From Myxococcota bacterium (lineage in GTDB: Bacteria > Myxococcota_C > UBA6777): a stretch of DNA of 26,624 nucleotides. Position 1 is the stretch's first letter, and every line of letters starts with the position of its first letter. The notes beneath the pieces were generated by a model. That model saw only the letters and a program-made list of their open reading frames with translations. It did no database searches and was not told where the DNA came from. This document shows positions 986 to 19,721 of this stretch, in pieces. The stretch spans positions 1 through 26,624 of the forward strand of contig JAKLKB010000094.1 in the NCBI GenBank assembly GCA_023150835.1, read 5' to 3'. The position numbers and the translations under genes are program-made.

Positions 986-1049
986 ACTTGCTCTGTTCGT
1001 CGTTACGAACGCACGATACTTGCTCTATCCGTCGCTACGCACACACGAT
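986..1049. repeat. Two-copy 32-bp tandem repeat between minus-strand genes
   Basis: Copies at 986-1017 and 1018-1049 both start ACTTGCTCT and end CACGAT, with a handful of differences inside. They lie between the lipoprotein stop and the start of the left-edge gene, directly upstream of that gene. No function is visible. The rest of the 972-1128 gap is A/C-rich, without an obvious hairpin. Confidence 0.75.
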
Positions 1050-1128
1050 GCACAACGCAACATACACCAAGATCCACAAAAAAAGAAACGCCCTCCTCCG
1101 AGAAAAAACAACACACACAAGCGATCCT

Positions 1129-1878: not shown

Positions 1879-1937
1879 CAACGATCTCCTTATCGACCGA
1901 ATAGAAAAGTTTCGATATCCAGAACAGACCGCATTCT

Positions 1938-3941
1938 TTACAGCTTGATAAAAGCCAAGATCATCCCTGTGATGCTTTCTCCTGCGATCACACCCGCAGC
2001 AAGGACGATAAGGAACCGTTCGGACCACTTAGGAGCCAAACGAGAGATCGCCAAAGCGATGATCCCGCCAAAGAAAAAAGACATCGAGTAAAACGCAGGG
2101 ATCACAAACGCCAAGCCGATACTCGCAGGGCTGGGAACCCATGTTTTGAGATGTTTCGGCAAAACTTTTTCCAAGACAGCCAAGATCATCCCCGCTACTC
2201 CGGCATAAAAGATCGCAACAAGACTTCCGGGAGGCATATTGCTCAGGCCCTTTTTGAAGACCTCTGCAACCGCCATCCACTGCGCGACAGCGGGCGCGGC
2301 CCATTCTTCCGTCATCAACATACCCTTTGGATCGGGGATCAACAACAAATAGGCAGCAGATCCCGCAAGCGCCCCCGACAAGACACCAAAAAACTGCGCA
2401 ATGGCCTGATAACGCGGCGAAGCGCCGATCAGCGCACCTGTCTTCAAGTCATGCAAAAGATCCGCACATTGGCTGGCTGCCCCACCCGTCACACCCGCTG
2501 CCATCAGGTTCGCGCTGACGTTGCCCGGGTCCAACACACCGAAAGTTAGCTGCGTCACTTTACCCATCGGCCCAACGGGTGTAATGCCCGTCTCCCCGGA
2601 AACGCGGCCTGCAACCACCGCAAGCAAAAAGCTCAACAACACACCAAACGTCGCGATGCCCGTCCCGATGCCAAACAACCAGCTCTGGCAGATCACCGAC
2701 ATCGCCAAAGTGACGACCAAGCCTGATAAAAACCAAGCACGCGGTACATCGTGTGAAGCCCCCCTATCTTGAACCTCTTGATCCGACCGACGTCCGCCTT
2801 GAAACACCGCCAACACCGAGCGCCAAGAAAAAGCAAACGAAGTCAACGCTGCGACCACCATCATCGAAACTCCCGGCCACAGCAACCACTTCAACATCGG
2901 TCCATAAAACGAGGCACTCGGATCAACGACGGTCACAAGACCCCACGGATCAAGCGCACGCATCGGATACGCCACAAATCCAGCCTCCACCGCATAAGGG
3001 CCCACAACCGTCCAAGCAACCACCGCCCCAAGCAAGATCGAAACACACGCCCGCAGACCGATCAACATCCCCACCGCGACCATCATCGTGCTCGGATCAA
3101 AAGCAAAAGATACCTGCGAAAAAGACAACGAAGAGATCCCCGCAGCTTGCATCTTTGCCCCCACAGGAAAAGACCCAAACATCGGGAGATTTTTGATCTT
3201 CCAGATCGCCACCGCGATCTTTGCAAGCGAAGCTGCCAACGCCCCACCCAACAGCATCTTGACGCGCTGCATAGCCTCGTCACCGCGAGCATACATCTGT
3301 TTGAGCGTTTCTGCCGTCGCAATCCCACTAGGGAAGGGCAGTTTGTCGACCACCAACATTTGACGCCGCAAACCGATCGCCACCACCACCCCCACGCAGG
3401 CCACCGAAAACACCCACACCGAAAGGATCGTCCAAGAAAAGCTCTGCCCTGTCATGATCGTCAACGCAGGGATCGGCGCAACCAAACCCGCAGACGAGAT
3501 CATCGCAGCACTCGAAGCTGCCGTCTGGTTGACGTTGTTTTCGTAGATATTCCATTCACGCGAACCCGTTAGACTCGAAAAAGCTTGCCAAAAACCGTAG
3601 CTCAAAAGAGCCGCAGTTACCGACATATTGAAGCCCCAGCCGATCTTCAAACCGCTATAGATATTGCACAACGACAACAACGCACCGATAAACATCCCTG
3701 TAGCGATCGCACGCACCGTAAGTTGCGGGGTGGACAAATCCAGCGGAGGGAACGTGGTTTCTGCAACGACAGCGCTTTGCTCAGAGGCAGACCGCAGCGT
3801 TGGTGTTTGTGAGTTGCTCTCTTGTTTAGGATGGCTGGTCTGTTTCTTCGGACGAGCAGAAGGCGGTATTTGCGATGCGTTCGCTCTCGGCTTATTTTTT
3901 TTGGGCTTCTTCGTCAAAATCTTTTCCTCCGTGTTGTCCAT
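1938..3941 (-). CDS. OPT-family oligopeptide transporter
   Basis: This is a polytopic inner-membrane protein of the OPT family, which takes up oligopeptides or metal chelates with protons. Diagnostic stretches are LCNIYSGLKIGWGFNMSV near the first helix, the SSAGLVAPIPALTIMTG region, and the late GVTGGAASQCADLLHDLKTG segment followed by GASPRYQ. A hydrophilic Lys/Pro/Ser-rich tail of about 80 residues precedes the first helix. The start is uncertain. ATG 3941 has only AAGG one base away. TTG 3917 has a perfect GGAGG (3926-3930) at 8-nt spacing and would shorten the protein by 8 residues. The longest possible start (4049) lies inside a tandem repeat and upstream of a candidate promoter, so I rejected it. 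The substrate cannot be read from sequence. Confidence 0.88.
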   Translation of the reverse strand: MDNTEEKILTKKPKKNKPRANASQIPPSARPKKQTSHPKQESNSQTPTLRSASEQSAVVAETTFPPLDLSTPQLTVRAIATGMFIGALLSLCNIYSGLKIGWGFNMSVTAALLSYGFWQAFSSLTGSREWNIYENNVNQTAASSAAMISSAGLVAPIPALTIMTGQSFSWTILSVWVFSVACVGVVVAIGLRRQMLVVDKLPFPSGIATAETLKQMYARGDEAMQRVKMLLGGALAASLAKIAVAIWKIKNLPMFGSFPVGAKMQAAGISSLSFSQVSFAFDPSTMMVAVGMLIGLRACVSILLGAVVAWTVVGPYAVEAGFVAYPMRALDPWGLVTVVDPSASFYGPMLKWLLWPGVSMMVVAALTSFAFSWRSVLAVFQGGRRSDQEVQDRGASHDVPRAWFLSGLVVTLAMSVICQSWLFGIGTGIATFGVLLSFLLAVVAGRVSGETGITPVGPMGKVTQLTFGVLDPGNVSANLMAAGVTGGAASQCADLLHDLKTGALIGASPRYQAIAQFFGVLSGALAGSAAYLLLIPDPKGMLMTEEWAAPAVAQWMAVAEVFKKGLSNMPPGSLVAIFYAGVAGMILAVLEKVLPKHLKTWVPSPASIGLAFVIPAFYSMSFFFGGIIALAISRLAPKWSERFLIVLAAGVIAGESITGMILAFIKL
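3915..3930 (-). promoter_or_regulatory. Strong ribosome binding site in front of alternative TTG start of OPT gene
   Basis: On the minus strand GGAGG (3930-3926) is followed by an 8-nt spacer and TTG (3917-3915) in the OPT frame. The upstream ATG at 3941 lacks a well-placed site. Translation may therefore begin at the TTG. Confidence 0.5.
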
Positions 3942-3980
3942 GCCTTCGACAAGATCGAAAGTAAAAACCAAAGCCTCACG

Positions 3981-4009
3981 GATATACACAACCCACCCTT
4001 CTAACGCAA
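3981..4009 (-). promoter_or_regulatory. Candidate sigma-70-type promoter for the OPT operon
   Basis: On the minus strand TTGCGT (4009-4004) and TATATC (3986-3981) are 17 bp apart, with the OPT ATG about 40 nt downstream of the -10. The -35 hexamer is the edge of the last unit of the 20-bp tandem array. The hexamers are only partly consensus. Confidence 0.35.
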
Positions 4010-4120
4010 GCATCACACAAGAGACGCAAGCGTCACACAAGAGACGCAAGCATCACACAAGAGACGCAAGCATCACACAAGAGACGCAAGCATCACACAA
4101 GAGACGCAAGCATCACACAG
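4004..4120. repeat. 20-bp tandem repeat array, about 5.8 copies, upstream of OPT gene
   Basis: Units start at 4004, 4024, 4044, 4064, 4084 and 4104 (the last is partial). The plus-strand unit is ACGCAAGCATCACACAAGAG. All units are identical except one G for A in the second unit. The array abuts the candidate -35 of the OPT promoter. It is open in some frames but has no ribosome binding site or codon character, so I treat it as non-coding. Confidence 0.95.
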
Positions 4121-4159
4121 CACCAACCCAACAAAGAAACAAAGTCCGTGTTCGCTGTG

Positions 4160-4262
4160 CTTCAAGCGGCTGCGTCGTTTGATTGAAAAACGACTGTTCT
4201 CCCCATCAATACGGGGTCAAGGGAGCCGCGCTCCCTTGCGGGGTGTGGGGCAGCGCCCCACA
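4160..4262 (+). repeat. Three-stem dispersed repeat, copy 1
   Basis: This is one of three copies in the window (also 13044-13145 and 18081-18184). Copy 1 has an outer TTCAA/TTGAA stem, then CAAGGGAGC-CGC-GCTCCCTTG (4218-4238), then TGTGGGGC-AGC-GCCCCACA (4244-4262). It lies between the SirB1-like gene end and the OPT upstream region. It resembles bacterial REP/BIME-type palindromic units. The hairpins could also act on RNA in the 3' region of the SirB1-like gene. Confidence 0.85.
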
Positions 4263-4298
4263 GGCGTTAGGCTAAGCGGAGGAAAGCCCCCCACCCCG

Positions 4299-4322
4299 CC
4301 CTCCCCCGTGAACAGGGGAGGG
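4299..4322. other. GC-rich hairpin, CCCTCCCC / GGGGAGGG
   Basis: An 8-bp perfect inverted repeat (4299-4306 and 4315-4322) with an 8-nt loop follows copy 1 of the dispersed repeat and precedes a 16-bp tandem array. On the minus strand it lies about 90 nt past the SirB1-like stop. There is no T-run, so it is not a classical terminator. Confidence 0.6.
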
Positions 4323-4332
4323 AGCGAAAGTC

Positions 4333-4389
4333 AAAACCATCCACCCACAAAACCATCCACCCACAAAACCATCCACCCACAAAACCATT
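4333..4389. repeat. 16-bp tandem repeat, about 3.5 copies
   Basis: The unit AAAACCATCCACCCAC is repeated at 4333, 4349 and 4365, with a partial copy at 4381. It lies just downstream of the SirB1-like gene on the minus strand. No coding sense seen. Confidence 0.9.
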
Positions 4390-4409
4390 CAAGAGCGCAA
4401 GTCCTGACA

Positions 4410-5279
4410 TCAATTCATCGAGTGTTTCTGATGATATAGCGATGTAAGATGGTACGTAGCGAGTTGTGCTTCTTTGGTGTTGGGGTAGCGTTGGGAAAGA
4501 AGTTCTGCGTCTTCGAGAGCTTGATCGATGTAGCCGAAGCGTTCGGCGATCTGCATACAAGCCATTAAAGCTGTCGGTTCGTGCGATGTCAGCGACCAAA
4601 GAAAGCGATGGATGCGATAAAAAGGGATCACCTCTTGTTGCTTTAAGTACGCATAACTCAGATTGCGCAAGATCCGCTCCAAGATATTGCGCGTGGGAGT
4701 GACATCAAGAAAGCGTTCCTCCCAGAAGGCCCGTCCGTGTGAGAGCGAGCGGAAACGCTCTTTGCATTCTTCACGAGACAGGATCTCTCCACCATGAAAC
4801 GCATCAACAAAAACGCCCTTCTCTCCGCCCACCCGAACAAGAAAATGCCCCGGCATACCGACGCCTTCGACACGAAAACCTGCGCGCTGCCCTACTTCCA
4901 TCCACACCACCCCAAGCGATATCGGCAGCCCTCGACGGCGCAAGATCACACGCGAGATATAGCTATTTTGGGGCTGATGATACGACTCGGTGTCTCCTTG
5001 AAGATCCATCTCTTCGACCAACACGCGACGCAAGACTTCGGCTTGTGCATGGGGTTGAGCGCACTCCTCGGTCATCTGCACACGTTCTCCCCAAGCCGCA
5101 AGCTGTTCCAAACACACGGAACGATCCGAAGCATCGGCACGTTCCAAATACAACAACGCCTCAAGCAGTGCGTGTTGCAAAGTCGCCTTCAAAAACGACG
5201 CCAGCGCTTTATCGTCCGCTGGCGACCACAAGACATCTTCCGAGACTTCGCGGATCATCGGTTTTTCTTCCTTCGCCAT
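4410..5279 (-). CDS. SirB1-family transglutaminase-like protein with TPR tail
   Basis: The 289-residue product has the SirB1/transglutaminase-like core: the GLPISLGVVWMEVGQRAGF segment (117-135), then VEGVGMPGHFLVRV with His145, then VDAFHGGEILS with Asp159. A C-terminal TPR-like stretch follows (about 203-285, including ALEDAELLSQRYPNTKEAQ). SirB1-family proteins carry a papain/transglutaminase-like fold whose catalytic Cys is not always kept. The activity here is unknown. The start is ATG 5279, where the conserved sequence begins, but its site is poor. ATG 5258, with AAGGA about 10 nt upstream, is an equally good choice. The frame is open up to 5681 without family-like sequence. The gene is divergent from the HAD gene. 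Confidence 0.85.
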   Translation of the reverse strand: MAKEEKPMIREVSEDVLWSPADDKALASFLKATLQHALLEALLYLERADASDRSVCLEQLAAWGERVQMTEECAQPHAQAEVLRRVLVEEMDLQGDTESYHQPQNSYISRVILRRRGLPISLGVVWMEVGQRAGFRVEGVGMPGHFLVRVGGEKGVFVDAFHGGEILSREECKERFRSLSHGRAFWEERFLDVTPTRNILERILRNLSYAYLKQQEVIPFYRIHRFLWSLTSHEPTALMACMQIAERFGYIDQALEDAELLSQRYPNTKEAQLATYHLTSLYHQKHSMN

Positions 5280-5438
5280 CCTGCCAAAACAGCCACCCAC
5301 ACGCCACGACCCCAAAACGTTCACGCCAAAACGCTGGCCGTCTAAGCGCGATGTTTTCCTGCTTTTGTGACGCGAAGACAAGCCACTTAGCCCACAGCAC
5401 AGCAACATGGGATGCGACAAGACCGAAGACAAGGAACC

Positions 5439-5467
5439 TTGACAAAGCATTGCGCGCAAGGTATTCA
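5439..5467 (+). promoter_or_regulatory. Candidate sigma-70-type promoter for the lipid operon
   Basis: A perfect -35 TTGACA (5439-5444) is followed by a 17-bp spacer and TATTCA (5462-5467). It lies in the 345-nt divergent gap between the SirB1-like and HAD genes, about 160 nt before the HAD ATG. The rest of that gap shows nothing else that I can support. Confidence 0.5.
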
Positions 5468-5624
5468 CGCAACGAAATTTCGCTTCGGATGGAGGGCAAA
5501 ACAGTTTGCTTTTCCCCGAAGGTTGGGCGATTTCATCAGGAACCATCAGAAGCGCCCTCTCATCCTGCGTGCGATGGATCGGGGGGAAAGCCGCGATCAC
5601 AAGAGAAAGAAGAGAGAGCAGAGG

Positions 5625-6302
5625 ATGTCCGCAAGCTATTTTGACGTCGATGGGACGTTGGTTCGCACCAACCTGATCCACCCAACGCTGTATTACCTAC
5701 GCGCCCAAGCCAACCCCATCAAATCCTTCAAAATGCTTGCACGCGCCTTTTCTCGCGGACCCGCGATGGCCCTTGCAGAACTTCGAGATCGGCGTCTGTT
5801 TAACGAGATGCTCTATGCCTCTTTTGAAGGCATGACCGAAGATCGTTTGCGCCTCTTTTCCGAAGAGATCCACGAAGAGGTGTTAAAGCCACAACTTTAC
5901 AAAGGTGCGCGAGATCTGATCCAGCGCAGCCTCGACAAAGGACACGAAGTCGTCCTTATATCGGGCGCTTTAGAAGTCGTACTCGAACACTTTGCCAAAG
6001 AAGTCGGCGCGCAGACGATCATCGCCAACCGCCTCGAAGTCAAAAACCACCGATTGACGGGAAAAATGTTGCGTCCAATTGTTGCAGGCCCAGAAAAGGC
6101 TCTCTTAATCCGACAACACGCAGCAGAAAAAGGATACGATCTCAACCACTGCAACGCGTATTCGGATTCTTACTCGGATGTGCCGATGCTGTCAGTGGTC
6201 GGTCACCCTGCCGCCGTCAATCCAGATGCAAAGCTCAAACAACTTGCGTTGGCCTACCAGTGGCCGATCGTTGATCTCGACGCAGGTAACGAGCGCAACT
6301 AA
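5625..6302 (+). CDS. HAD-superfamily phosphatase, subfamily IB (SerB/PgpC-like)
   Basis: The 225-residue product has all HAD motifs. FDVDGT lies at residues 6-11, with nucleophile Asp7 and Asp9. The motif II Ser is in VLISGA (about 110-115). A Lys sits in GPEKALL (about 155). The acidic pair is in YSDSYSDVPML (about 179-189). The spacing and the phrase GHPAAVNPDAKL match the HAD-IB group, which includes phosphoserine and phosphatidylglycerophosphate phosphatases. The start ATG 5625 is chosen because motif I follows at once, although its ribosome site (GAGG) is very close. The gene is first in the lipid operon, so dephosphorylation of a phospholipid or glycerol-phosphate intermediate is the likeliest role (inference). 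The gap to the next gene (6303-6385) holds a weak GGATCGA/TCGATCC inverted repeat. Confidence 0.88.
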   Translation: MSASYFDVDGTLVRTNLIHPTLYYLRAQANPIKSFKMLARAFSRGPAMALAELRDRRLFNEMLYASFEGMTEDRLRLFSEEIHEEVLKPQLYKGARDLIQRSLDKGHEVVLISGALEVVLEHFAKEVGAQTIIANRLEVKNHRLTGKMLRPIVAGPEKALLIRQHAAEKGYDLNHCNAYSDSYSDVPMLSVVGHPAAVNPDAKLKQLALAYQWPIVDLDAGNERN

Positions 6303-6385
6303 CCCTCTTCACTTCGGATCGATCGCCCTCCCCTCCTTGGAGGCTCGATCCCTGCAACGCGAATGTTGAAACAAGGCCAATCCCC

Positions 6386-7963
6386 ATGATCAATCACCCC
6401 TCTGTTTCTTATATCGACAACCACTCTGTTCCTCGTGTGATCTTCGCTGGGACACGCCTGATCGAAGTAGACCTTCCGGTTGGAACCCGCGTGATCTACC
6501 CCAATCCACCGCTTGAACCGCTCAAAGACGTCGATGCAGCCATCCGCTACGCGATCAACCACCCCCACAACGCAGAGCCGTTGTATGCACGCTTAAAGCC
6601 CGGAATGAAGGTCTTTATCGCGGTCGACGATATCTCGCTCTCGCTGCCTCCGATGAAACAACCCGATGTGCGAGAGCGCATCTTACACATCGTTCTCGCC
6701 TTGCTTGCAGATTACGGCATCGACGATATCGAGATATGCGTCGCAACTTCGTTTCACCGCCGCATGACCGCTGCAGAAGTCCGTCACATGGTCGGAGACA
6801 AGATCTTCAAAGCATATTGGCCTGATCGGCTCTACAACCATGATGCCGAAGACAAGGACAATATGGAGTACCTTGGAACAACCGATCATGGCGAAGAAGT
6901 CGAACTTAACAAACGCGCCGTTCAATCGGACTTGATCATCTACGTGAACCTCAACTTTGTGCCGATGGATGGGGGACACAAATCGGTGAGCGTCGGTCTG
7001 TGCGGATACCGCAGCCTCAAAGCACACCACAATCCCAAAGTCATGCGCAAGTGCCATAGCTATATGGACCCCGCCTCTTCCGAGCTCAACACCAGCGTCG
7101 AGCGGATGGGCAAACTCGCGAACAAACATCTCAATGTTTTTACGATCGAAACCACCGTCAATACGAAGATGTTTGATGATCCGCTTTCCTTTTTGATGAA
7201 ACAAGAAGACCGCTGGAACAGCGCCGAGCGCTTTGGATGCAAAGCGATGATCAAAACACTCGATGCCTTGCCTCAAATGGCGCGACAAAAGATCTTTGAG
7301 CGCGTCCACGCTCCCTACGGTGTGACGGGCGTTAACGCAGGCGAGACTGAGGCCACGCACAAAAAAACCCTCAAACGCGGCTTTGAACAGTTCTCCGTCC
7401 CCGTACAAGGACAGGCCGATATCTTGGTTTCAGGCATACCATACATCTCCCCTTACAACGTCAACGCCTACCTCAATCCGCTGCTTGTGACGGTCATGGC
7501 CGAAGGCTACCTCTTTAATATGTACCGAGGAAAGCCGCTATTGAAAAAAGGCGGAACCATGATCATCACCCACCCTTGTACAGACTACTTCGATCATGCG
7601 CAACACGCCCCATACATCGAGTTTGTCCACCGCCTACTCCCTCAAACACGCGATGCCATGAAGCTGCATCACATGGAAGAAGACTTTGCTTCTAACCCCG
7701 CCTACATCGAGATGTATCGACGCGGACAAGCCTATCACCCCGCGCATCCGTTCTTTATGTGGTACTGGGGCGAAGCAGGACGCCAACACCGAGGCCGTGT
7801 GATCGTCGTAGGAGCCGACAATAGCTACATCCCGGAGCTACTTGGTTACGAAACAGCCAACAGCATGCACGAAGCCCTTGAGATGGCCCAAGATACCGCG
7901 CCGCCCTCTCCACAGATCACACTACTCCACGTCCCGCCTATCTTGATCGCGGATGTGACCTGA
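6386..7963 (+). CDS. LarA-like (DUF2088) protein
   Basis: The 525-residue product belongs to the lactate-racemase LarA superfamily. A VDD-containing loop lies at about residues 79-89 (DDISLSLPPMK). ATSFHRRMTAAEVRHMVGD (about 118-136) corresponds to the family GTHRPMT region. NHDAEDKDNMEYLGTT follows, then MDGGHKSVSVGLCGYR (about 194-209), whose Lys corresponds to the cofactor-binding position, then HHNP. In LarA these regions hold a nickel-pincer nucleotide and the substrate. Here the usual DDxTR motif reads DDISL, so the Arg is missing and lactate racemization is doubtful. The protein is also longer than LarA (about 425 residues). No larB, larC or larE is nearby. It lies between the HAD phosphatase and the lipid fusion gene. 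AAGG sits upstream of the ATG. The stop codon lies inside a 30-bp repeat array. Confidence 0.82.
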   Translation: MINHPSVSYIDNHSVPRVIFAGTRLIEVDLPVGTRVIYPNPPLEPLKDVDAAIRYAINHPHNAEPLYARLKPGMKVFIAVDDISLSLPPMKQPDVRERILHIVLALLADYGIDDIEICVATSFHRRMTAAEVRHMVGDKIFKAYWPDRLYNHDAEDKDNMEYLGTTDHGEEVELNKRAVQSDLIIYVNLNFVPMDGGHKSVSVGLCGYRSLKAHHNPKVMRKCHSYMDPASSELNTSVERMGKLANKHLNVFTIETTVNTKMFDDPLSFLMKQEDRWNSAERFGCKAMIKTLDALPQMARQKIFERVHAPYGVTGVNAGETEATHKKTLKRGFEQFSVPVQGQADILVSGIPYISPYNVNAYLNPLLVTVMAEGYLFNMYRGKPLLKKGGTMIITHPCTDYFDHAQHAPYIEFVHRLLPQTRDAMKLHHMEEDFASNPAYIEMYRRGQAYHPAHPFFMWYWGEAGRQHRGRVIVVGADNSYIPELLGYETANSMHEALEMAQDTAPPSPQITLLHVPPILIADVT

Positions 7964-8153
7964 TCGACCTCGATCGTCGCAGATACGGCATGATCGACAT
8001 CGAGCATCGCAGATGTGACCTGATCGACCTCAAGCATCGCAGATGTGACATGATCGACCTCAAGCATCGCAGATGTGACCTGATCGACCTTGAGCATCAC
8101 AGATGTGACCTGATCGACCTTGAGCATCACAGATGTGACCTGATCGGCCTCGA
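7943..8153. repeat. 30-bp tandem repeat array that begins inside the end of the LarA-like gene
   Basis: Full units lie at 7961, 7991, 8021, 8051, 8081 and 8111, with partial copies at 7943-7960 and 8141-8153. Each begins TGATCGACCT or close to it and ends AGATGTGACC or close to it. The first partial unit encodes the last residues of the LarA-like protein (LIADVT) and the stop falls at the unit boundary. The unit is 10 codons, so several frames stay open (for example 7990-8259), but none has a convincing start. The remainder of the gap to 8242 holds only the ribosome site of the next gene. Confidence 0.95.
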
Positions 8154-8242
8154 CGCAAAACCTCGCAAGCAGTCCCAACAACACACAAACAAGATACCTA
8201 CGCCGCGCCCGACACAAGCGGCATTTGCTGACGGTGATTTCG

Positions 8243-11200
8243 ATGAAGACAAAACATAGCCAGCCTCTCCCCATCAAAACGACGCCCTCCACCCCGTCGT
8301 TCGAGCTTCAAAACAACGAAACCCTCGATGTAGAGGCAACGTTCCGAGGAAAAAACATCGTTGTCGTCGGAGGAACAGGCTTTTTGGGGAAAGTTTGGGT
8401 GTCGATGTTGCTTCATCGCTACCCTGATATCGGGCGTTTGTATCTGATGGTGCGCGCACGTCCTCATCTTTCCTCCGAGCAACGCTTTTGGCGCGAGATC
8501 GCCTCTTCCGAAGTCTTTCGGCCCCTACGCGAAAAGTACCAAGACAAAGCAGACGCTTTTCTCAAAGCAAAGATCCTCCCGATCGACGGCGATGTGTCGA
8601 AGCCCCGATGCGGGATCTCGCAAGAGCTTCAAGATGAACTACGCAGCCAAGCCCATGTCGTCGTGAACGTCGCGGGTGTTGTGGACTTCAATCCTCCCAT
8701 CGACGAAGCCCTTCATGTCAACTGTTTTGGTGTGATCCACTTGATCGAACTGTGCCGAACGCTCGGCGATCTGCCGCTTTTGCACACCAGCACTTGTTAT
8801 GTCGCAGGCAACCGAGACGGCAATATCCCCGAGATCGATCCGCGCAGCTTTCCCTTCCCCTACTGCGAAAAGATCGACCCAACACACTGGGATCCCGAAC
8901 GCGAGATCCAAGAAGGGCACCGGCTGACCGATCACGCAAAGCGCGAAGCCAGCGAGGCCTACCGTGAGTCCGAGTTTTTGACCACCGCCAAGGAAAACCT
9001 CAACCGCAAAGGCGAACCTTGCCGTGGTCCCGCACTTCAAGACGAGTTCGAACGCATCAAAAAGAAATTCATCGAAGAGATGCTCAGCGACGAAGGCGGA
9101 AAACGTGCGAATCACTGGGGCTGGACAAACACTTACACTTACAGCAAAAGCATCGGCGAACAGCTTTTGATGCAATCAGGATTGCGCGCCACCATCGTTC
9201 GGCCTTCGATCGTCGAGTCTTGCGTCGAGTATCCTTTTCCCGGATGGAACGAAGGGATCAACACTTCTGCGCCGCTAATCTACATCATCGTGCATGGTGG
9301 AGCGACGATCTTCCCCGGTCGTTGGGACGTGATCCTCGATATCATCCCCAACGATATGGTCTGTGCAGGGATGATCTTTGCACTCGCTGCATTGATCGCC
9401 AACAAGCACAAGCCGGTCTATCAGTTGGCCTCAGGCGACACCAACCCTTTGATCATGAACCGCTCCATCGAATTATGCTCTCTTTACAAACATCGGATGC
9501 TGCGTAAAAAACCGCTGAGTAGTCCGCTACAACAGGCCATCCAATCCCTCTACGGTTCAGAAGGTGTGTCTGTCGATGATTTCGAGCGCTACGGGGTTCC
9601 CGCTTACAGTCGATGGGCCAAAGGGCTCTCCAAGATCACCCGAGAAGTCGGCAAGATCCCGGGTCTTGGCTTCTTGCGCGGTAGTGCAAAGCAGCTTGAA
9701 CAAGCGTCGATCTCGTTGAAAAAGACGGCAGGGATCTTCAAAACGTTTATGCCGTTTATCTACGATCGGCGCTATCGTTTTGAAACCCGCAACACCCGAG
9801 AGCTTTATGCGATGCTCACACCACAAGATCGCGCCAAACTGCCTTGGACACCCGAAGCGATCGACTGGTACAATTACTTTCTCGACACCCATATCCCCGG
9901 CCTCGAAAATTGGGTCCGCCCGCTGATCGAAGACAAGCTGCGCAAGACACTCAAGCCACTGCGCGCACATGCCGATCTTGTCGCCATGATCGATGAAGTC
10001 GTAGACGATAACCCCTACGGTGTAGCCTTTCAAAAGCTCGTCGACGGGCGTCTCGAATCTGTGATGTACCGAGAATTTCGCGCCAGCGCACGCCGCATCG
10101 CAGGGATGCTCCAAGCCGAAGGCATCACACGCGGCGATCGTGTCTTGCTTGCGGGAGCCAACAGCCCGACGTGGCCGATCGCTTATTTTGGTATCCTTTA
10201 CGCGGGAGCCACGGCTGTTCCGCTCGATCCCGACCTCGGAGCCGAACGCCTCCACACTCTCTTTCAATCTTCCAAAGCCCGCTTTGCGATCTGGGATCAA
10301 GCCTTTTATCGGGATGCTGGACACGTCCTCGTCGGAAATGGCGTGCAACCCGACCATCCGCCCGTCCCCTTCTTGCTTTTTGAAGATATCGAACAAAACA
10401 AACTTCCCGATCATCCTTACCAAGACGTGACGATCGATCCCGAAGATATCGCCAGCTTGATCTTTACCAGCGGCACAACGGGCCAGCCCAAGGGCGTGAT
10501 GCTGACGCATACCAACTTCACCAAGATCCGCGCCTCCCTTGTTCCGCTGTTTCCGCTCAAACACCACGACAGCGCCCTTTCTTTGTTGCCGCTCCATCAC
10601 ACCTTTGAGTTCACTTGCGGCCTCTTGCTTCCGCTCTCTTGCGGTGCGCGCATCACTTATCTCGAAGAACTCAACGGCGACAACCTGATCACTGCACTCA
10701 AAGAAGCCCAAGTGACGGCTCTTGTCGGCGTTCCTGCCCTCTGGCAACTGCTCGCCAAACGCCTGCGTTCTCGCATCAAAGAACGTGGCGCTTTGCTCGA
10801 AAACCTATTTGACAACCTGCTCCAATTCAACCGCAGCATCGGAAAGATGACGGGGATCGATCTCGGAAAAACGCTGTTTGCCCCGATCCATGCGCAGCTT
10901 GGTGGACATCTGCGTTACTTGATCTCTGGCGGAGCAGCCCTGCCCAAAGAAACGCAAGAACTCTTTAACGGCCTTGGTCTCCATCTTGCCGAAGGATACG
11001 GCCTGACCGAAGCCGCTCCTGTTCTCACCGTCGCCAAAGGCGGCCCCAACGAAAAGCTCGGACACGTCGGAAAACCCATCCCGGGCGTCGAAGTGCGCAT
11101 CCACGATCCAAACAACGAAGGTATCGGCGAGATCATCGCACGCGGCCCAAACGTCATGGCTGGCTACGCCGACAATCCCGAAGCCACCGCTGCGGTCCTT

Positions 11201-13015
11201 GATCAAGACGGCTGGCTCCATACAGGCGACATCGGAAAGTTCGATCACAAGGGGCGTTTGACCATCGTGGGGCGTTCCAAAGAAGTGATCATCACCAGCA
11301 ACGGAGAGAACGTCTATCCCGACGATCTCGAAGACATGATCGGCCTTCCTCGATCCATCAAAGAACTCGTCGTACTCGGCATCAGCGACGAGAGAAACAC
11401 CGAAAAAGTTGCGATCATGGCCGTCCCTGCGTATGGAAAAGAAGCAGACGACCCATCGTTCACCTACGAACAAGCCCTTCTCAAGGCCCGAACCGATCTC
11501 CATGACCGCTTCAAAAAACTGCCTTCTCACAGCCGCCCAAGCGTCATCCACTTCCAACCCGAAGCACTACCGCGCACCGCCTCACGCAAAGTCAAGCGCA
11601 AAGAAGTCCGCGCATTGCTCGAAAAGATGGAGGCTCAACACGAGATCCAAGGCATCGAGACAACGGGCGAGATCTCCACGCAACTGATCAAAACGGTGGC
11701 GCGCCTCGCTGGCATCTCTTCGGAAAAGATCAAAGCAGAGACGCGCCTTGCTGCCGATCTCGGCCTTGACTCCTTGATGATGGGTGAGCTCCACGCCGAA
11801 CTGGAAAGGATGCTCGATCGCCGCATCAAAGCCGACGAACTCTCTTCTTACGAAACCATCGACGAGATCCAACGTTATCTTCAACGTACAGCAGGCGAAC
11901 AGATCAGCCTCCACAACAGCGCCGATGTCTGGCTTGAAGAAGAGGCCGAAGACCACGACAAAAACACCACGCCCCCGATCCTTCCCCGCGTCGTCCAAGA
12001 CACCGTGAAAGATGTCCTACGCAACGTACAAGAAAGCTTTTACACAAGCGTCATGGACACCAAAGTGTACGGACGCGCCAACATCCCGCACAACCGCCCC
12101 ACCCTGATCGCAGCCAACCACGCAAGCCACCTTGATACGGGCCTTGTTCGCACAGCCCTCGGCTCCTACGGCGATCAACTCGTCACTCTCGGCGCACAAG
12201 ATTATTTCTTCAAAGACGATCTCCGCCGCTTCTACTTTGAAAACTTTACCAACGTCGTTCCCGTCGATCGCAAGGGCGGTTTTGACAAAAGCCTTGAGGC
12301 AGCTCGCAACGTCCTACGCGAGGGCAAGACGCTGTTGATCTTCCCCGAAGGAACCCGCAGCAAAGACGGCTCCATCGCTGCGTTTAAACCGGGCATCGGC
12401 TATCTCGCCCAAGAATTCGACCTCGATATCCTCCCGATCTACCTGAGCGGAACGTACCAAAGTATGCCCAAAGGCCGCGCCGTACCGACCAAACGCAAAC
12501 TGCGTGCTTATATCGGCGCTCCCCTCGATATCGAACAACTCAAAGCCCTCGTCCAAGGTCGCGAGATCCCCGAAGCTTCGCGCATCCTTACACACATCAT
12601 CCAAACGGCGATCGAACACTTGCGCGATAAAAAGCGCTTCGATCTCGCCGCCTACGAGATCCCCAAAACCAAAGAAAAAGAAGACAAACCCGAAGATATC
12701 GTCCCTGCTCTGTTTGCTTACCTCAAAGATCGCTTTAACCAAAAAGAAGTCGAAGAACCTCTCTGCTTCTACTTCACCCTCGGCGAAGATGCCCAAAGCA
12801 AGTGGAGTATCGAGATCGGCAAACAAAGCTGCGCGATCCATCCCGGCAAACCCTCCCAAGGTGCCGCCGATTGCGTCCTCAAGACCTCTCCCGAGATCTT
12901 CCGACAGATCGTCAAAGAGTCCTATGTTCCCGATCCCGATATGTTCTTTTCTGGACAGATCAAATCCAACAATCCTTTCTTACTCCAACACTTCGTTCGG
13001 ATCTTTAACCTGTAG
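8243..13015 (+). CDS. Five-domain lipid enzyme: fatty acyl reductase / AMP-ligase / ACP / PlsC acyltransferase / SCP2 (ElbD-like)
   Basis: The 1590-residue fusion has five domains in order. (1) An NADPH-dependent fatty acyl reductase (about 30-430) with GGTGFLG at 43-49 and catalytic YTYSK at 298-302. (2) An acyl-AMP ligase (about 570-1125) with IFTSGTTGQPKG near 742, EGYGLTEAAP near 917, LHTGDIGKF near 992 and the C-terminal Lys in TASRKVKRKEV. (3) An acyl carrier domain (about 1130-1215) with the phosphopantetheine Ser in GLDSL. (4) A PlsC-type acyltransferase (about 1260-1470) with NHASHLD and FPEGTRS. (5) An SCP2-like sterol/lipid carrier domain (about 1485-1590). All signature residues are present. 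The start is ATG 8243, with GGTGAT before it, rather than TTG 8225. The architecture resembles myxobacterial ElbD of ether-lipid synthesis. I recall that comparison and have not aligned the proteins. The likely product is a reduced or ether-type glycerolipid. Confidence 0.92.
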   Translation: MKTKHSQPLPIKTTPSTPSFELQNNETLDVEATFRGKNIVVVGGTGFLGKVWVSMLLHRYPDIGRLYLMVRARPHLSSEQRFWREIASSEVFRPLREKYQDKADAFLKAKILPIDGDVSKPRCGISQELQDELRSQAHVVVNVAGVVDFNPPIDEALHVNCFGVIHLIELCRTLGDLPLLHTSTCYVAGNRDGNIPEIDPRSFPFPYCEKIDPTHWDPEREIQEGHRLTDHAKREASEAYRESEFLTTAKENLNRKGEPCRGPALQDEFERIKKKFIEEMLSDEGGKRANHWGWTNTYTYSKSIGEQLLMQSGLRATIVRPSIVESCVEYPFPGWNEGINTSAPLIYIIVHGGATIFPGRWDVILDIIPNDMVCAGMIFALAALIANKHKPVYQLASGDTNPLIMNRSIELCSLYKHRMLRKKPLSSPLQQAIQSLYGSEGVSVDDFERYGVPAYSRWAKGLSKITREVGKIPGLGFLRGSAKQLEQASISLKKTAGIFKTFMPFIYDRRYRFETRNTRELYAMLTPQDRAKLPWTPEAIDWYNYFLDTHIPGLENWVRPLIEDKLRKTLKPLRAHADLVAMIDEVVDDNPYGVAFQKLVDGRLESVMYREFRASARRIAGMLQAEGITRGDRVLLAGANSPTWPIAYFGILYAGATAVPLDPDLGAERLHTLFQSSKARFAIWDQAFYRDAGHVLVGNGVQPDHPPVPFLLFEDIEQNKLPDHPYQDVTIDPEDIASLIFTSGTTGQPKGVMLTHTNFTKIRASLVPLFPLKHHDSALSLLPLHHTFEFTCGLLLPLSCGARITYLEELNGDNLITALKEAQVTALVGVPALWQLLAKRLRSRIKERGALLENLFDNLLQFNRSIGKMTGIDLGKTLFAPIHAQLGGHLRYLISGGAALPKETQELFNGLGLHLAEGYGLTEAAPVLTVAKGGPNEKLGHVGKPIPGVEVRIHDPNNEGIGEIIARGPNVMAGYADNPEATAAVLDQDGWLHTGDIGKFDHKGRLTIVGRSKEVIITSNGENVYPDDLEDMIGLPRSIKELVVLGISDERNTEKVAIMAVPAYGKEADDPSFTYEQALLKARTDLHDRFKKLPSHSRPSVIHFQPEALPRTASRKVKRKEVRALLEKMEAQHEIQGIETTGEISTQLIKTVARLAGISSEKIKAETRLAADLGLDSLMMGELHAELERMLDRRIKADELSSYETIDEIQRYLQRTAGEQISLHNSADVWLEEEAEDHDKNTTPPILPRVVQDTVKDVLRNVQESFYTSVMDTKVYGRANIPHNRPTLIAANHASHLDTGLVRTALGSYGDQLVTLGAQDYFFKDDLRRFYFENFTNVVPVDRKGGFDKSLEAARNVLREGKTLLIFPEGTRSKDGSIAAFKPGIGYLAQEFDLDILPIYLSGTYQSMPKGRAVPTKRKLRAYIGAPLDIEQLKALVQGREIPEASRILTHIIQTAIEHLRDKKRFDLAAYEIPKTKEKEDKPEDIVPALFAYLKDRFNQKEVEEPLCFYFTLGEDAQSKWSIEIGKQSCAIHPGKPSQGAADCVLKTSPEIFRQIVKESYVPDPDMFFSGQIKSNNPFLLQHFVRIFNL

Positions 13016-13043
13016 ATGGGACCTACACGATTGGGTTTGTTTT

Positions 13044-13145
13044 GCGGGGTTTGACCCCACACCCCACAAGGGAGCACGGCTCCCTTGACCCCGTGTTTGG
13101 CGAACAGAGCAAAGTTTTTCAACCCAGCAGCTCTGTCGCTTGAAG
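13044..13145 (-). repeat. Three-stem dispersed repeat, copy 2
   Basis: This is the inverted copy, 28 nt after the stop of the lipid fusion gene. On the minus strand it reads CTTCAAGCG, then CAAGGGAGC-CGT-GCTCCCTTG, then TGTGGGGT-CAA-ACCCCGCA. The last stem differs from copies 1 and 3 by a paired change (C with G replaced by T with A) plus one G-T pair. It sits inside the operon between the fusion and the SDR gene. Confidence 0.85.
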
Positions 13146-13184
13146 CGACACGAACACCGCTTTTTTGATAGTTGCGTCACTCCT

Positions 13185-13302
13185 ATAGGACTTACGCAGC
13201 TCGATACGAAAAAGGCCCATGTTCGGGCGCGGGCGGTTCGCGAACCGCCCCTACAACGGGTTGATTCTTCACGCTTTCCCTCTTCCACTGCGTAACTCCT
13301 AT
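13185..13302. mobile_element. MITE-like element, 118 bp, with 15-bp terminal inverted repeats
   Basis: The left end ATAGGACTTACGCAG (13185-13199) and the right end CTGCGTAACTCCTAT (13288-13302) are inverted repeats matching at 14 of 15 positions. A perfect 20-bp palindrome, GGGCGGTTCGCGAACCGCCC, lies inside at 13231-13250. There is no coding capacity. A CCT is found on both outer edges and may be a short target duplication. It sits 27 nt upstream of the SDR start, whose ribosome site lies outside the element. Non-autonomous mobility is inferred from structure only. Confidence 0.6.
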
Positions 13303-13329
13303 CCTACTGTAAAGAAAGGGATACGACGG

Positions 13330-14430
13330 ATGGCAACCTACTTCGTCACAGGAGCGACAGGCTTTTTGGGCGCGCATCTTGTGGATGCGCTGCTTGCTGC
13401 GGGGCATCAAGTGATCGCTCTTGTGCGCCAACCTCACCCACCACTCACCCAAAAAGGCGTACATACCGTCCTTGGCGATATCCTCGATATCGAAAGCGTC
13501 CGCGCTGCACTACGAACGCTATCCGCCCCATTCGACGGACTTTTTCACGCAGCAGGAAAAGTCTCCCGCGATCCTGACGATACACTCGCGATGACCCGCA
13601 TGAACCACCACGGCACACGCAATACACTCAAGGCCGCCAAAGAAGCCGGCATCCCTCGCGTCGTCCATCTCAGCACTTCAGGAACCGTCGCCATCCGAGA
13701 AAAGCCCTCCCCCCTGCCCAACGAGACCTCCCCCACTCCACTCAAACTGCTTGGTCGACTTCCCTATTACCGCTCCAAACTCTATGCAGAAGAAGACGCC
13801 CTACGCATGAATACTCCCGATTTTGCGGTGGTATCGCTGAATCCCTCTCTTCTGCTTGGCCCGGGCGATATCACAGGAGCCTCCACCAAAGAAGTCCGCC
13901 TCTTCCTCGAAGAAAAGATCCCCGCCCTGCCCTCGGGTGGTCTGTCTTTTGTCGATGTTCGCGATGTCGCCGATATCGCGGTAAGCGCGATCGAAAAAGC
14001 CCGCCCCGGGCAACGCTATCTGCTCGGTGGAGCCAATATGACCTTCGCGGACTTTTTTGGCCGCCTCGAACGCGTCTCAGGGATCAAAGCCCCCACTCTC
14101 CCGATGCCCAAAGACGCCCTCCTTTCCGACCTCAGCCATCGCCTTTTCAAACGAGCCTCCGAAGCTCTCGGCCACAAGATCCATGTCCTCGACAGCGAGA
14201 TCGATCAATCCCGTTATTTCTGGTATCTTGACGATACCCGCGCCCGCAAAGAACTCGACTTCAAAACCCGCGAACCCATGCAAACCCTTTACGACACGGT
14301 ACAGGATCTTCGCACACGCGGCATCGTCTGGCCCACAGACGACACACCTTCCCTCGATACCAACGCTTGGCAAGACGACCTGCTTTCCGCCTCATGGCTG
14401 CGACAGATCCAAGGCAAAACCGCTCCATGA
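13330..14430 (+). CDS. Extended SDR / NAD-dependent epimerase-dehydratase-type oxidoreductase
   Basis: The 366-residue product opens with MATYFVTGATGFLGAHL, the Rossmann GxxGxxG motif of extended SDRs (TGATGFLG, residues 7-14). Asp44 in LGDILD and the HLSTSGTVA strand follow. The catalytic YxxxK is YYRSK (about 141-145). The family includes dihydroflavonol-4-reductase-like and sterol-dehydrogenase-like enzymes that act on NAD(P)H-dependent alcohols or ketones. The substrate cannot be read. The start ATG 13330 has AAAGGGA about 9 nt upstream and puts the dinucleotide fold at the N-terminus. The frame is open from 13219, but that part overlaps the MITE-like element. The stop overlaps the next start in ATGA, so the two are translationally coupled. 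In the operon it may reduce a keto-intermediate of the lipid product. Confidence 0.87.
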   Translation: MATYFVTGATGFLGAHLVDALLAAGHQVIALVRQPHPPLTQKGVHTVLGDILDIESVRAALRTLSAPFDGLFHAAGKVSRDPDDTLAMTRMNHHGTRNTLKAAKEAGIPRVVHLSTSGTVAIREKPSPLPNETSPTPLKLLGRLPYYRSKLYAEEDALRMNTPDFAVVSLNPSLLLGPGDITGASTKEVRLFLEEKIPALPSGGLSFVDVRDVADIAVSAIEKARPGQRYLLGGANMTFADFFGRLERVSGIKAPTLPMPKDALLSDLSHRLFKRASEALGHKIHVLDSEIDQSRYFWYLDDTRARKELDFKTREPMQTLYDTVQDLRTRGIVWPTDDTPSLDTNAWQDDLLSASWLRQIQGKTAP

Positions 14431-15380
14431 AAACCGCACTGATTATTAACCCGCAGTCAGGGGGAGGACGGACGCTTCGTCTCTGGCCGCAACTTGAACC
14501 CATGATCCGTCACTTTTTACCCGATGCAACGCCCCTTTGGACCGAGCAGATCGGACACGCTTGCACACTTGCCCAACAAGCCGCTTTTGAAGGTGCGGAT
14601 CTTGTGATCGCCGTCGGCGGTGACGGCACACTCAACGAAGTCGTCAACGGCTTAATGCGACACCAAAGCGAGGCCATACGTACCAAAACACCGGATCTGG
14701 GGCTTTTTCCACAGGGTACAGGCGGCGATTTTCGCCGTTCGCTTGGCCTCGATCCGACACCCGCCAGCTATCTCCAACGCCTCGCTCAGCCACGCACACG
14801 CAACCTCGATATCGGCAATCTGCGTTTTCTCGATCACGAAGGCACCCCAACGCAACGATATTTTGTCAACGTCGCCTCGGTCGGGCTGGGCGGACTGGTC
14901 GATCAGCAGATCCAGCACACACGCAGCTCCAATGCCCAACGTGCCTACCTCGCCGCTTCCTTGCATGCGCTTCGAGACAACGTCTTGGCTCCGCTTCACA
15001 TCGAGATCGCAGCACCACACGCCCCGACGACGCGCACCCAACAGCAACTACACTCTCGCAATCTGGCGATCTGCAATGCCCGATTCTTCGGCGGCGGGAT
15101 GCAGATCGCTCCCCATGCACGACCTGATGACGGGCTTTTTGATGTCGTCAACTTTGCCCACCCTTCCCGCCTTCATCTCATCCCCTTGCTCCCCTCCCTC
15201 TACGAGGGCAAACACCTCACACGGGCGCACGTCCAATCTTTTCGTGCTGCCGACCTCCACATCACACTCGCTGATCCCGACCTCGCCGATCGCGTCCTCC
15301 TTGATGTGGACGGTGAGGCCCTTGGCCGCCTCCCCCTTCGCGTCGAAATGATACCTTCCGCCCTTCGCTTGCGCCTTTGA
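14427..15380 (+). CDS. Diacylglycerol kinase-family lipid kinase (YegS/DagK-like)
   Basis: The 317-residue product has the DAGK catalytic domain. NPQSGGGRT lies at residues 8-16. AVGGDGTLNEVVNGL, the nucleotide-binding GGDGT loop, lies at about 61-75. FPQGTGGDFRRSLGL lies at about 94-108. A C-terminal beta-sandwich follows, with DDGLFDVVNFAHPS and the terminal DVDGEALGRLPLRVE typical of the family. Members phosphorylate diacylglycerol, sphingosine-like or other lipid alcohols using ATP at the inner membrane. It overlaps the SDR gene by 4 nt and ends the operon. A kinase for a lipid alcohol or diglyceride made upstream fits the setting (inference). It converges on the receptor gene with 32 nt between the stops and no visible terminator hairpin. 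Confidence 0.92.
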   Translation: MKTALIINPQSGGGRTLRLWPQLEPMIRHFLPDATPLWTEQIGHACTLAQQAAFEGADLVIAVGGDGTLNEVVNGLMRHQSEAIRTKTPDLGLFPQGTGGDFRRSLGLDPTPASYLQRLAQPRTRNLDIGNLRFLDHEGTPTQRYFVNVASVGLGGLVDQQIQHTRSSNAQRAYLAASLHALRDNVLAPLHIEIAAPHAPTTRTQQQLHSRNLAICNARFFGGGMQIAPHARPDDGLFDVVNFAHPSRLHLIPLLPSLYEGKHLTRAHVQSFRAADLHITLADPDLADRVLLDVDGEALGRLPLRVEMIPSALRLRL

Positions 15381-18184: not shown

Positions 18185-18355
18185 ACACCATCCGACTGCG
18201 TCTCTCGTTTTCTATCGAACTCGAATCAAAAACGGTTTTAGCACGAATCACACACCGTAGACAACGAGTTTTTTCTGCTCGTCTTGCCAAAGACAAAAAA
18301 GAAAGATACACAAAGAACCACTCCACACCTCTTCATTCTGCCAAAGGATATCGAG

Positions 18356-19267
18356 ATGCCCCAACAAAAGATCCCCACGCCACCCCACAACAACAACGAC
18401 GCCGCTGCCTCCAAGAGCGCGGAACTTACAAGCCCGCTGCTCCAACGCCCGCTCCCTCCACGCCATCACGCCAAACTTAAAACCTACCTGCTCGGGATGT
18501 TGCATCTCCCACGTCTACTCGAAGGCCCCGCAGCCCTGCCGATGCGCCAGATCGTTCAACGAGCCATCATAGACGCACAGATCCTCACCGATGCTGGTTT
18601 CGACGCCCTGATCATCGAGAACTTTGGCGACACTCCTTTTTACCCCGATCAAGTCCCTCCCCACACTGTCTCCGCGATCACACGCGTTGCCTGTGCTGTT
18701 CAAGACGCCCTCCATCAACGCCATGCGTCTCCCCCTCACCTCGGGATCAATGTTTTGCGCAACGATGCTGTCGCGGCCCTTTCGATCGCTGCGGCGAGCG
18801 ATGCAGCGTTTGTACGCATCAACGTCCACAGCGGAGCCATGATCACCGATCAAGGTATCATCGAAGGAAAAGCTCACATCACCCTACGCCTTCGCCAACA
18901 GATCGCCCCCAACGTACGGATACTCGCCGATATCCGAGTCAAACATGCCGCGCCTATCGCTCCGCGCTTACCTGCCGACGAAGCCCTCGATACATGGCAA
19001 CGCGCCCATGCCGATGGCATCGTCCTTTCAGGCTCACACACAGGCTCTCCCACCAACCCCCGAACCCTCCAAGAACTCCGCGAAGCACTCCCCGAATGCC
19101 CCCTTTACATCGGCTCGGGCGCAACCATCGAACAACTGCCCAACCTCCTCCCCCATGCTACGGGGCTTATCGTTGGGACATCGCTCAAATACAACGGCAT
19201 CTCCACCGAAGCCGTCGATCCCCAACGAGCCGAAGCCTTTGTGCGCGCTGTCCACAACCACCCATAA
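18356..19267 (+). CDS. BtpA/SgcQ-family TIM-barrel protein
   Basis: The 303-residue product carries the family signature almost throughout: LLGMLHLPRLLEGP (about 46-59), AGFDALIIENFGDTPFYPD, GINVLRNDAVAALSIAAAS, AAFVRINVHSGAMITDQG, RILADIRVKHAAPI, then ADGIVLSGSHTGSPT and LYIGSGATIEQLP near the end. The family is named for cyanobacterial BtpA, needed for photosystem I accumulation, and E. coli SgcQ. The chemistry is unknown and members occur in non-photosynthetic bacteria. The first 40 residues are hydrophilic and not conserved-looking. The start ATG 18356 has AAAGGAT 8 nt before it. The upstream in-frame ATG at 18284 is less likely. The gene is divergent from the receptor and not obviously in an operon. 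Confidence 0.88.
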   Translation: MPQQKIPTPPHNNNDAAASKSAELTSPLLQRPLPPRHHAKLKTYLLGMLHLPRLLEGPAALPMRQIVQRAIIDAQILTDAGFDALIIENFGDTPFYPDQVPPHTVSAITRVACAVQDALHQRHASPPHLGINVLRNDAVAALSIAAASDAAFVRINVHSGAMITDQGIIEGKAHITLRLRQQIAPNVRILADIRVKHAAPIAPRLPADEALDTWQRAHADGIVLSGSHTGSPTNPRTLQELREALPECPLYIGSGATIEQLPNLLPHATGLIVGTSLKYNGISTEAVDPQRAEAFVRAVHNHP

Positions 19268-19280
19268 CCCGATCAATCCG

Positions 19281-19641
19281 CCTGTTTTGGCACCACCGAC
19301 CACCCAAAAAACCTGTCATCCGCCTGTTTTGGCACCACCGACCACCCAAATAACCTGTCATCAGCTTGTTTTGGCACCACCGACCACCCAAATAACCTGT
19401 CATCAGCTTGTTTTGGCACCACCGACCACCCCAAAGGACCTGTCATCCGCTTGTTTTGGCACCACCGACCACCCAAATAGCCTGTCATCCGCTTGTTTTG
19501 GCACCACCGACCACCCAAATAGCCTGTCATCAGCTTGTTTTGGCACCACCGACCACCCAAATAACCTGTCATCCGCTTGTTTTGGCACCACCGACCACCC
19601 AAATAACCTGTCATCAGCTTGTTTTGGCACCACCGACCACC
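19281..19641. repeat. 42-bp tandem repeat array, nine copies
   Basis: Copies start at 19281, 19323, 19365, 19407, 19450, 19492, 19534, 19576 and 19618. The unit contains TTTTGGCACCACCGACCACC followed by a CCTGTCATC(A/C)GC joint. The fourth unit is 43 bp, which shifts the frame. Because 42 is a multiple of three, long ORFs run through it on both strands (for example minus 19273-19704), but the frameshift and lack of ribosome sites argue against coding. There are no unique spacers, so it is not CRISPR. It fills most of the gap between the BtpA-like and nuclease-like genes. Confidence 0.95.
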
Positions 19642-19721
19642 GCTGCGACGCTTGCGCTTTTCGTGCATTTGTGGAAACGTCACCCACCCACCCAAGCCAC
19701 CCAAGCATGGAGGCCTCTGTC

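Follow-up and report, generated by a model that had tools for sequence, protein, structure and literature searches.

The window analysed here (the whole stretch of DNA, 26,624 nucleotides long) carries a divergent elb ether-lipid cluster from outside the Myxococcaceae. As judged by sequence comparison, its elb membership is firm, because the large fusion protein is ElbD-like and its neighbours match those of elbB-C-D-E in identity, order and strand. We consider it probable that the locus is an elbB-C-D-E cluster supplemented with a lipid kinase and an SCP2 tail, and that it works as proposed below, including an ElbC that uses the nickel-pincer nucleotide (NPN). From the gene identities, synteny, co-occurrence and residue conservation observed for the cluster, we infer an NPN-dependent step in ether-lipid synthesis. 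The more specific assignment, in which ElbC would be an NPN-dependent hydride-transfer enzyme catalysing a required and unrecognised step of bacterial ether-lipid biosynthesis, e.g., at the C2 alcohol or ketone of alkyl-glycerol-phosphate, is put forward tentatively, with somewhat less than even confidence.

Five co-directional open reading frames, all on the + strand, were confirmed in the locus, and Pfam and NCBIfam searches supported the preliminary description of a HAD phosphatase, a LarA-like protein, a fusion, an SDR and a lipid kinase. The elbB homologue (5625..6302) encodes a HAD-IB phosphatase of 225 aa with the DVDGT motif (TIGR01490, 144 bits, cut-off 98); its likely start is ATG 5625 rather than 5412 or 5439, and the orthologues begin at about the same point. 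It is followed by the elbC homologue (6386..7963; 525 aa), which encodes a LarA-like protein of the single-histidine NPN type, by the elbD homologue (8243..13015; 1590 aa from ATG 8243), whose Pfam domains identify a reductase-ligase-ACP-acyltransferase-SCP2 fusion, and by the elbE homologue (13330..14430; 366 aa), an extended SDR according to Pfam and NCBIfam with the motifs GATGFLG and YxxxK. The last gene (14427..15380) encodes a YegS/diacylglycerol-kinase-like lipid kinase with the GGDGT motif (TIGR00147, 136 bits, cut-off 119), and from its likely start at 14427 it overlaps the SDR frame by 4 bases (ATGA). The gaps between the five genes are, in order, 83, 279, 314 and -4 bases, so that a single transcript for all of them is plausible. 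The TTGACA promoter previously proposed ahead of the cluster is not supported: the hexamer is rarer than expected in the whole window (6 copies versus 14 expected), and no acceptable -10 box was found for the copy at 5439. An elbA gene (SDR) in first position was not found upstream, where a divergent transglutaminase-like gene lies instead. As M. xanthus can make ether lipids without elbA (PMC9131029), and many orthologous loci in the flank comparison also showed no elbA, this gene was not counted as cluster-defining.

Residues of the fusion are numbered from the TTG-start ORF, whose residue 1 lies at 8225, while ATG 8243 is the likely start. The domain search revealed, all on the + strand, an N-terminal fatty acyl reductase (FAR; NAD_binding_4, residues 48-381, 8366..9367), a sub-threshold 'Sterile' C-terminal match after it (residues 499-562, 9719-9910), an AMP-binding acyl ligase domain (10040..11635; Pfam AMP-binding spans residues 606-981, and the NCBIfam ligase models extend to about residue 1137), an ACP (phosphopantetheine) domain (PP-binding, residues 1153-1219, 11681..11881, GLDSL) and a PlsC-type acyltransferase domain (Acyltransferase, residues 1280-1407, 12062..12445, HASHLD and FPEGTR). 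The order FAR, acyl ligase, ACP, acyltransferase is that of ElbD, the motifs GGTGFLG, YxxxK, TSGTTGxPKG, DSL, HxxxxD and FPEGTR are present, and the search gave no polyketide or wax-ester match for the fusion. Myxococcaceae ElbD has the identical domain order and shares about 40% identity with the fusion over about 1,440 residues; together with the neighbours and their order, this bears out the likeness to ElbD noted in the preliminary description.

Unlike Myxococcaceae ElbD, the window's homologue bears a C-terminal tail (12650..13012, + strand) which, on the basis of its profile and predicted fold, is probably an SCP2 domain. The window's own tail alone scored 17 bits, under the Pfam cut-off of 21.3; seven of eight homologous tails matched SCP2 (best 2.3e-5), the tail profile matched the SCP2 of human MFE-2 at 7.9e-5, and the predicted tail fold (pLDDT 87) resembles SCP2 and alkylsulfatase SCP2 domains. 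The earlier proposal that the fusion activates, tethers, reduces and transfers a fatty chain without release can be kept only as a possibility: two relatives of the fusion have no ACP domain, and in vitro, ligase and ACP activity of ElbD was detected, while neither a reductase product nor acyltransferase activity was seen (PMC9131029).

In each of the 18 Myxococcaceae loci whose flanks were complete, the HAD, LarA-like, ElbD and SDR genes follow one another in this order on one strand, with the elbE orthologue directly 3' of elbD, and the cluster members there belong to the same NCBIfam families as those of the window. The same order was present in two named records (L010 and L014) and in another seven loci from Myxococcota (L114-L117, L122-L124), and it agrees with the published elbB-C-D-E (PMC9131029). 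At these loci, homologues of the fusion keep the neighbours whose absence would have spoken against the preliminary description. The YegS kinase occupies the same place in G001/G021, G003 (where ElbC lies apart from the cluster) and G130, and is not found in the Myxococcaceae loci. Compared with elb of Myxococcaceae, two additions are present, the SCP2 tail and the lipid kinase.

In the elb cluster, elbC has been listed with an 'unknown function'. The window's ElbC is a single-histidine LarA homologue, scoring 808 bits against NF052592 (cut-off 740; most Myxococcaceae ElbC score 801-849) and 135 bits for the Lar_N domain (PF09861). NF052592 comprises LarAH14/15/16, named 'NPN-dependent hydroxyacid isomerase'; the name makes no mention of elb or ether lipids, and the LarAH papers examined report no substrate for these ElbC-type members. 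One LarAH14 protein, from Frankia, was assayed and proved inactive on the substrates offered (PMC7583248). By both profile and predicted fold (TM 0.77/0.83 versus 9q3k), ElbC is nearest to the single-His LarAHs LarA_Sp and LarA_Bw (PDB 9q3k, 9q3j; PMC12611868), the closest solved sequences, at about 20% identity. Residues D82, H124, N190, K199 and H215 of ElbC are invariant across 19 sequences, and K199, H215, H124 and D82 are equivalent to the NPN-binding Lys184, the nickel histidine His200, the catalytic His108 and the ribose-binding Asp72 of LarA. The equivalent of LarA Arg75 (NPN phosphate/carboxylate) is not kept, L85 standing at a position that is variable in the 19 sequences, and in place of the second catalytic His174 there is no His, with the invariant N190 nearby. 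As both equivalents are missing, ElbC is not a canonical racemase, and it groups with the single-His branch. LarA_Sp and LarA_Bw, like ElbC, keep the first catalytic His, the NPN-lysine and the ribose Asp, and have an Asn that coincides with the second-His position or is one residue away from it (in the sequence alignment, ElbC Asn190 is shifted by one residue relative to the Asn in LarA_Bw). They carry a Lys in place of R75, whereas ElbC is variable there, and their gene context is sugar metabolism (PMC12611868), whereas that of ElbC is ether lipid. The preliminary description did not recognise the LarA-like protein as the counterpart of ElbC, and this correspondence is the most informative part of the locus.

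For the window's own lineage, five genomes were found, three of them above 90% completeness, and a phylum-wide sample of 154 Myxococcota genomes was used instead. Both ElbD and ElbC were present in 118 of these, ElbC alone in two and neither in 34, while no genome carried ElbD alone; in 28 of the 118 genomes ElbC is not adjacent to ElbD, yet both are kept. LarC, which builds the NPN, was detected in 118 of 120 ElbC-bearing genomes versus 24 of 34 (71%) without ElbC; the sampled genomes share descent, and Fisher p-values for such co-occurrence overstate independence. ElbC was the sole Lar_N protein in 18 of the 22 ElbC-bearing genomes checked. The reduced 2.7 Mb genome G027 keeps LarC with ElbC as its only Lar_N protein, and G066, the only Myxococcaceae genome that has neither ElbC nor ElbD, is also without LarC. 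The larB and larC genes are adjacent in the window's genome (G000), and larB lies near larC in G062. The co-occurrence of ElbC and ElbD suggests that ether-lipid synthesis may include a nickel-dependent step.

In M. xanthus, ether-lipid formation depends on ElbD and probably on ElbE. Among myxobacteria the route through ElbD predominates, and the conversion of fatty acid to alkyl ether lipid is described as a series of unknown steps (PMC9131029). In the proposed pathway, the ligase domain of ElbD would activate a fatty acid and load it onto either CoA or the ACP of the same protein, the reductase domain would yield a fatty aldehyde or alcohol, the PlsC domain would acylate a glycerol-phosphate or DHAP acceptor, and the SCP2 tail may shield or hand over the greasy chain. 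The ether bond would arise through acyl-for-alkyl exchange, plausibly by one of the two AGPS-like flavoproteins encoded in G000. Their best matches are the solved ADPS structures 2uuu/4bby at about 192-252 bits, far weaker than the 557 bits reached by the G048 protein, and one of the two genes adjoins a glycerol-3-phosphate-oxidase-like gene. ElbE would reduce the ketone arising from the exchange, and ElbB would dephosphorylate to neutral alkylglycerols, which the YegS kinase may re-phosphorylate. ElbC, with NPN made with LarB/LarC, would transfer a hydride at a secondary alcohol or a ketone within the glycerol or hydroxyacid moiety. The CarF/PEDS1 desaturase (PF10520) was absent from G000 (93% complete) and from seven other genomes, and present in two Myxococcaceae, G048 and G062; since it is absent here, the product is likely an alkyl ether lipid rather than a plasmalogen.

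Because the R75 position is variable and the second catalytic His is gone, ElbC may bind NPN in another way or fail to bind it, and its LarA fold could serve as a scaffold or bind another nucleotide, with LarC retained for other reasons. LarC in the majority of ElbC-less genomes would fit this reading, as would G031 and G156, which have ElbC and no detectable LarC, but both are fragmented assemblies. Given also that the NPN-lysine, the nickel histidine, the ribose aspartate and the first catalytic histidine are invariant, and that ElbC is the sole Lar_N protein in most LarC-keeping genomes, G027 included, we regard an NPN-free ElbC as rather unlikely.

The full elbB-C-D-E synteny and the two AGPS-like proteins also argue against another fatty-alcohol-derived lipid in this lineage, i.e., a wax ester, alkyl-glycolipid or remodelled phospholipid. 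No ether lipids were seen in a Verrucomicrobia genus that carries ElbD homologues (PMC11868695), and the added kinase and SCP2 tail and the missing CarF show that the pathway has diverged; however, no wax synthase domain was found within or beside the cluster, and such a product appears improbable. The AMP-binding, ACP and reductase domains also look like a minimal NRPS-like module, but a polyketide/NRPS-like assembly line with incidental neighbours is scarcely credible, as the best scores belong to fatty-acyl ligase models, the acyltransferase is of the PlsC type and the neighbours are conserved across Myxococcota. elbD homologues were called NRPS-like in a BGC survey (PMC9426513), but this is merely a label for the ElbD family itself.

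An ElbC that acts as such an NPN-dependent hydride-transfer enzyme in a required step would explain why LarC is kept in nearly all ElbD-bearing Myxococcota with ElbC usually the sole Lar_N protein. Present in every sampled ElbD-bearing Myxococcota genome, with LarC retained, ElbC is a concrete candidate for the missing ether-lipid step, and an orphan group of nickel-cofactor proteins would gain a possible function. To our knowledge, no lipid-pathway role of the nickel-pincer cofactor was known before, and this one, if true, would be the first. The literature search returned no paper joining ElbC with LarA or NPN with ether lipids; an earlier mention is possible.

The M. xanthus elbA-elbE operon (Lorenzen et al. 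2014, as presented in PMC9131029) has elbB (HAD), elbC, elbD (FAR-ACS-ACP-AT) and elbE (SDR) in the order and direction seen in the window. The window differs from it by having no elbA upstream, an SCP2 tail on ElbD, a YegS kinase after elbE, wider gaps between elbC, elbD and elbE, and a genome without CarF. The reductase, acyltransferase and SDR functions of the mammalian peroxisomal ether-lipid pathway (FAR1, GNPAT, AGPS, alkyl-DHAP reductase) all have counterparts in the cluster, and AGPS-like proteins are encoded elsewhere in the genome. In contrast to the mammalian pathway, the reductase and acyltransferase are fused with the ligase, ACP and SCP2 domains, and the LarA-like protein has no known mammalian counterpart. 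Outside the Myxococcaceae the cluster is rebuilt, as the SCP2 tail, the added kinase and the relatives lacking an ACP domain show.

The window spans the entire contig G000:C29 of the draft genome. As the preliminary description stated, its five clustered genes all read one way, and open reading frames and domain matches placed them on the forward strand: a HAD-IB phosphatase (elbB, 5625–6302), a LarA-like protein (elbC, 6386–7963), the reductase-ligase-ACP-PlsC-SCP2 fusion of 1590 residues (elbD, 8243–13015), an extended SDR (elbE, 13330–14430) and a YegS-type lipid kinase (14427–15380), the first coordinate being the likely start in each case. The kinase gene overlaps the SDR gene by ATGA. 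On the two sides of the cluster lie a transglutaminase-like gene, read divergently, and a TonB receptor gene, read convergently. The reductase, ligase, ACP and PlsC motifs are intact in the fusion, which is 96% identical to its counterpart in the nearest named relative, the MAG 'Myxococcota bacterium KLAP109'. The TTGACA promoter proposed ahead of the cluster was not supported. Outside the cluster, at 18284–20651, a BtpA-family ORF overlaps the start of a PD-(D/E)XK transposase-family ORF.

The M. xanthus operon has the order elbA (SDR), elbB (HAD), elbC (unknown function), elbD (FAR-ACS-ACP-AT) and elbE (SDR) (PMC9131029). In the family to which a named Myxococcaceae MAG belongs, 54 of 58 genomes carried ElbD, and the HAD, LarA-like, ElbD and SDR genes occurred in identical order on a single strand in all 18 Myxococcaceae loci with full flanks (L058–L075), some of which carry a further SDR upstream, at the expected place of elbA. 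The same order was found in loci L010, L014, L114–L117, L122, L123 and L124. Because this gene order and the NCBIfam families of the proteins are common to the window and the Myxococcaceae loci, the window holds elbB-C-D-E, the name ElbC following from gene position. What was observed earlier is mostly confirmed, and the interpretation proposed with it, a likeness of the fusion to ElbD and an ether-lipid product, is supported. The cluster type is already known, while its variant architecture is new; the phylum-level group of the window comprises only five of the sampled genomes, all of one family, and the variant thus comes from a sparsely sampled lineage.

Unlike the ElbD of Myxococcaceae, which lacks the SCP2 tail (the match ends near residue 1475), the window ElbD carries it, and so do those of genomes G001, G003, G022, G026, G118, G130 and G156. 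The earlier naming of the SCP2 domain is correct, with its support coming from homologues: the Pfam SCP2 model matched seven of eight related tails, and the tail profile matched SCP2 of human MFE-2. The fold predicted for the tail also resembles SCP2 domains. The ElbD orthologues of G026 (L014:10001–14416) and G118 (L121:10409–14965) keep SCP2 in uninterrupted frames but lack the ACP domain. A strict scheme in which the chain is loaded on ACP and stays bound therefore cannot be general, and the suggested tethering without release is only a possibility; SCP2 or CoA possibly takes the place of the tether in the ACP-less proteins. A YegS kinase immediately 3' of elbE was found only in G001/G021, G003 and G130 among the loci examined.

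ElbC scored above the cut-off of NF052592 (LarAH14/15/16), and among solved structures it is nearest to 9q2u/9q3k and 9q3j, LarA homologues with a single histidine, both in profile comparison and in fold (TM 0.77 and 0.71). Asp72, His108, Lys184 and His200 of lactate racemase correspond to D82, H124, K199 and H215, which are invariant in 19 orthologues, as is N190, near the site of the absent second catalytic histidine, whereas Arg75 corresponds to a variable position. For one-histidine homologues, a different hydride-mediated reaction has been proposed as possible (PMC7583248). None of the papers searched linked the nickel-pincer nucleotide (NPN) with ether lipids, and by this search the assignment of elbC as a putative NPN-type protein is new and testable.

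Among 154 Myxococcota genomes (requested completeness of at least 90%), 120 carried ElbC and 118 carried ElbD, and every one of these 118 also has ElbC; 34 have neither. ElbC immediately precedes ElbD in 90 of the 118 genomes and lies apart from it in 28, in 26 of these on other contigs, some likely through assembly breaks, with both genes retained. Among them are reduced genomes of 2.1–2.7 Mb, with HAD and ElbC on one contig and ElbD and SDR on another. The family member G003 retains HAD-ElbD-SDR-kinase together and ElbC on a separate contig, away from the cluster (G003:C35 and G003:C49). LarC accompanied ElbC in 118 of 120 genomes, versus 24 of the 34 without it, and G066, the Myxococcaceae genome without ElbC and ElbD, also lacks LarC. 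A check of 25 genomes for Lar_N proteins of every kind found ElbC in 22 (the 22 include G001 and G021, probably one assembly) and no other such protein in 18 of these. On these counts, which are uncorrected for relatedness, NPN use by ElbC is the simplest reading but is not proved. G042 and G080 have ElbC and LarC and no full ElbD, which could reflect assembly gaps or a separate role of ElbC. The larB gene adjoins larC in the window genome and lies near it in G062; the former pair (L109:8192–9979) adjoins a gene resembling the myxosortase-dependent metalloprotease family.

M. xanthus needs ElbD, and probably ElbE, to make ether lipids, and both ligase and ACP activity have been shown for its ElbD (PMC9131029). 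In the putative pathway, the ElbD reductase and PlsC domains would provide a fatty alcohol and an acceptor bearing an acyl chain, an AGPS-like enzyme would exchange acyl for alkyl, and ElbE would reduce the ketone. Dephosphorylation by ElbB might be followed by rephosphorylation by the YegS kinase, and the SCP2 tail may shield the chain. Hydride transfer by ElbC-NPN would be the most interesting of these steps and is the least certain.

CarF is absent from the window genome, and its ether lipids are therefore expected to be of the alkyl and not the vinyl type. The genome encodes two AGPS-like proteins outside the window, both farther from solved ADPS than the protein of G048. In L127 (G000:C223), at 2319–5681, one of them, a flavoprotein, stands beside a glycerol-3-phosphate dehydrogenase/oxidase-like gene and is a candidate for ether-bond formation with DHAP supplied from the adjoining gene. 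In L126 (G000:C160), at 687–4019, the second has a malonyl-type acyltransferase and a FabA-like dehydratase as neighbours, polyketide-like surroundings that are unusual for a relative of alkyl-DHAP synthase.
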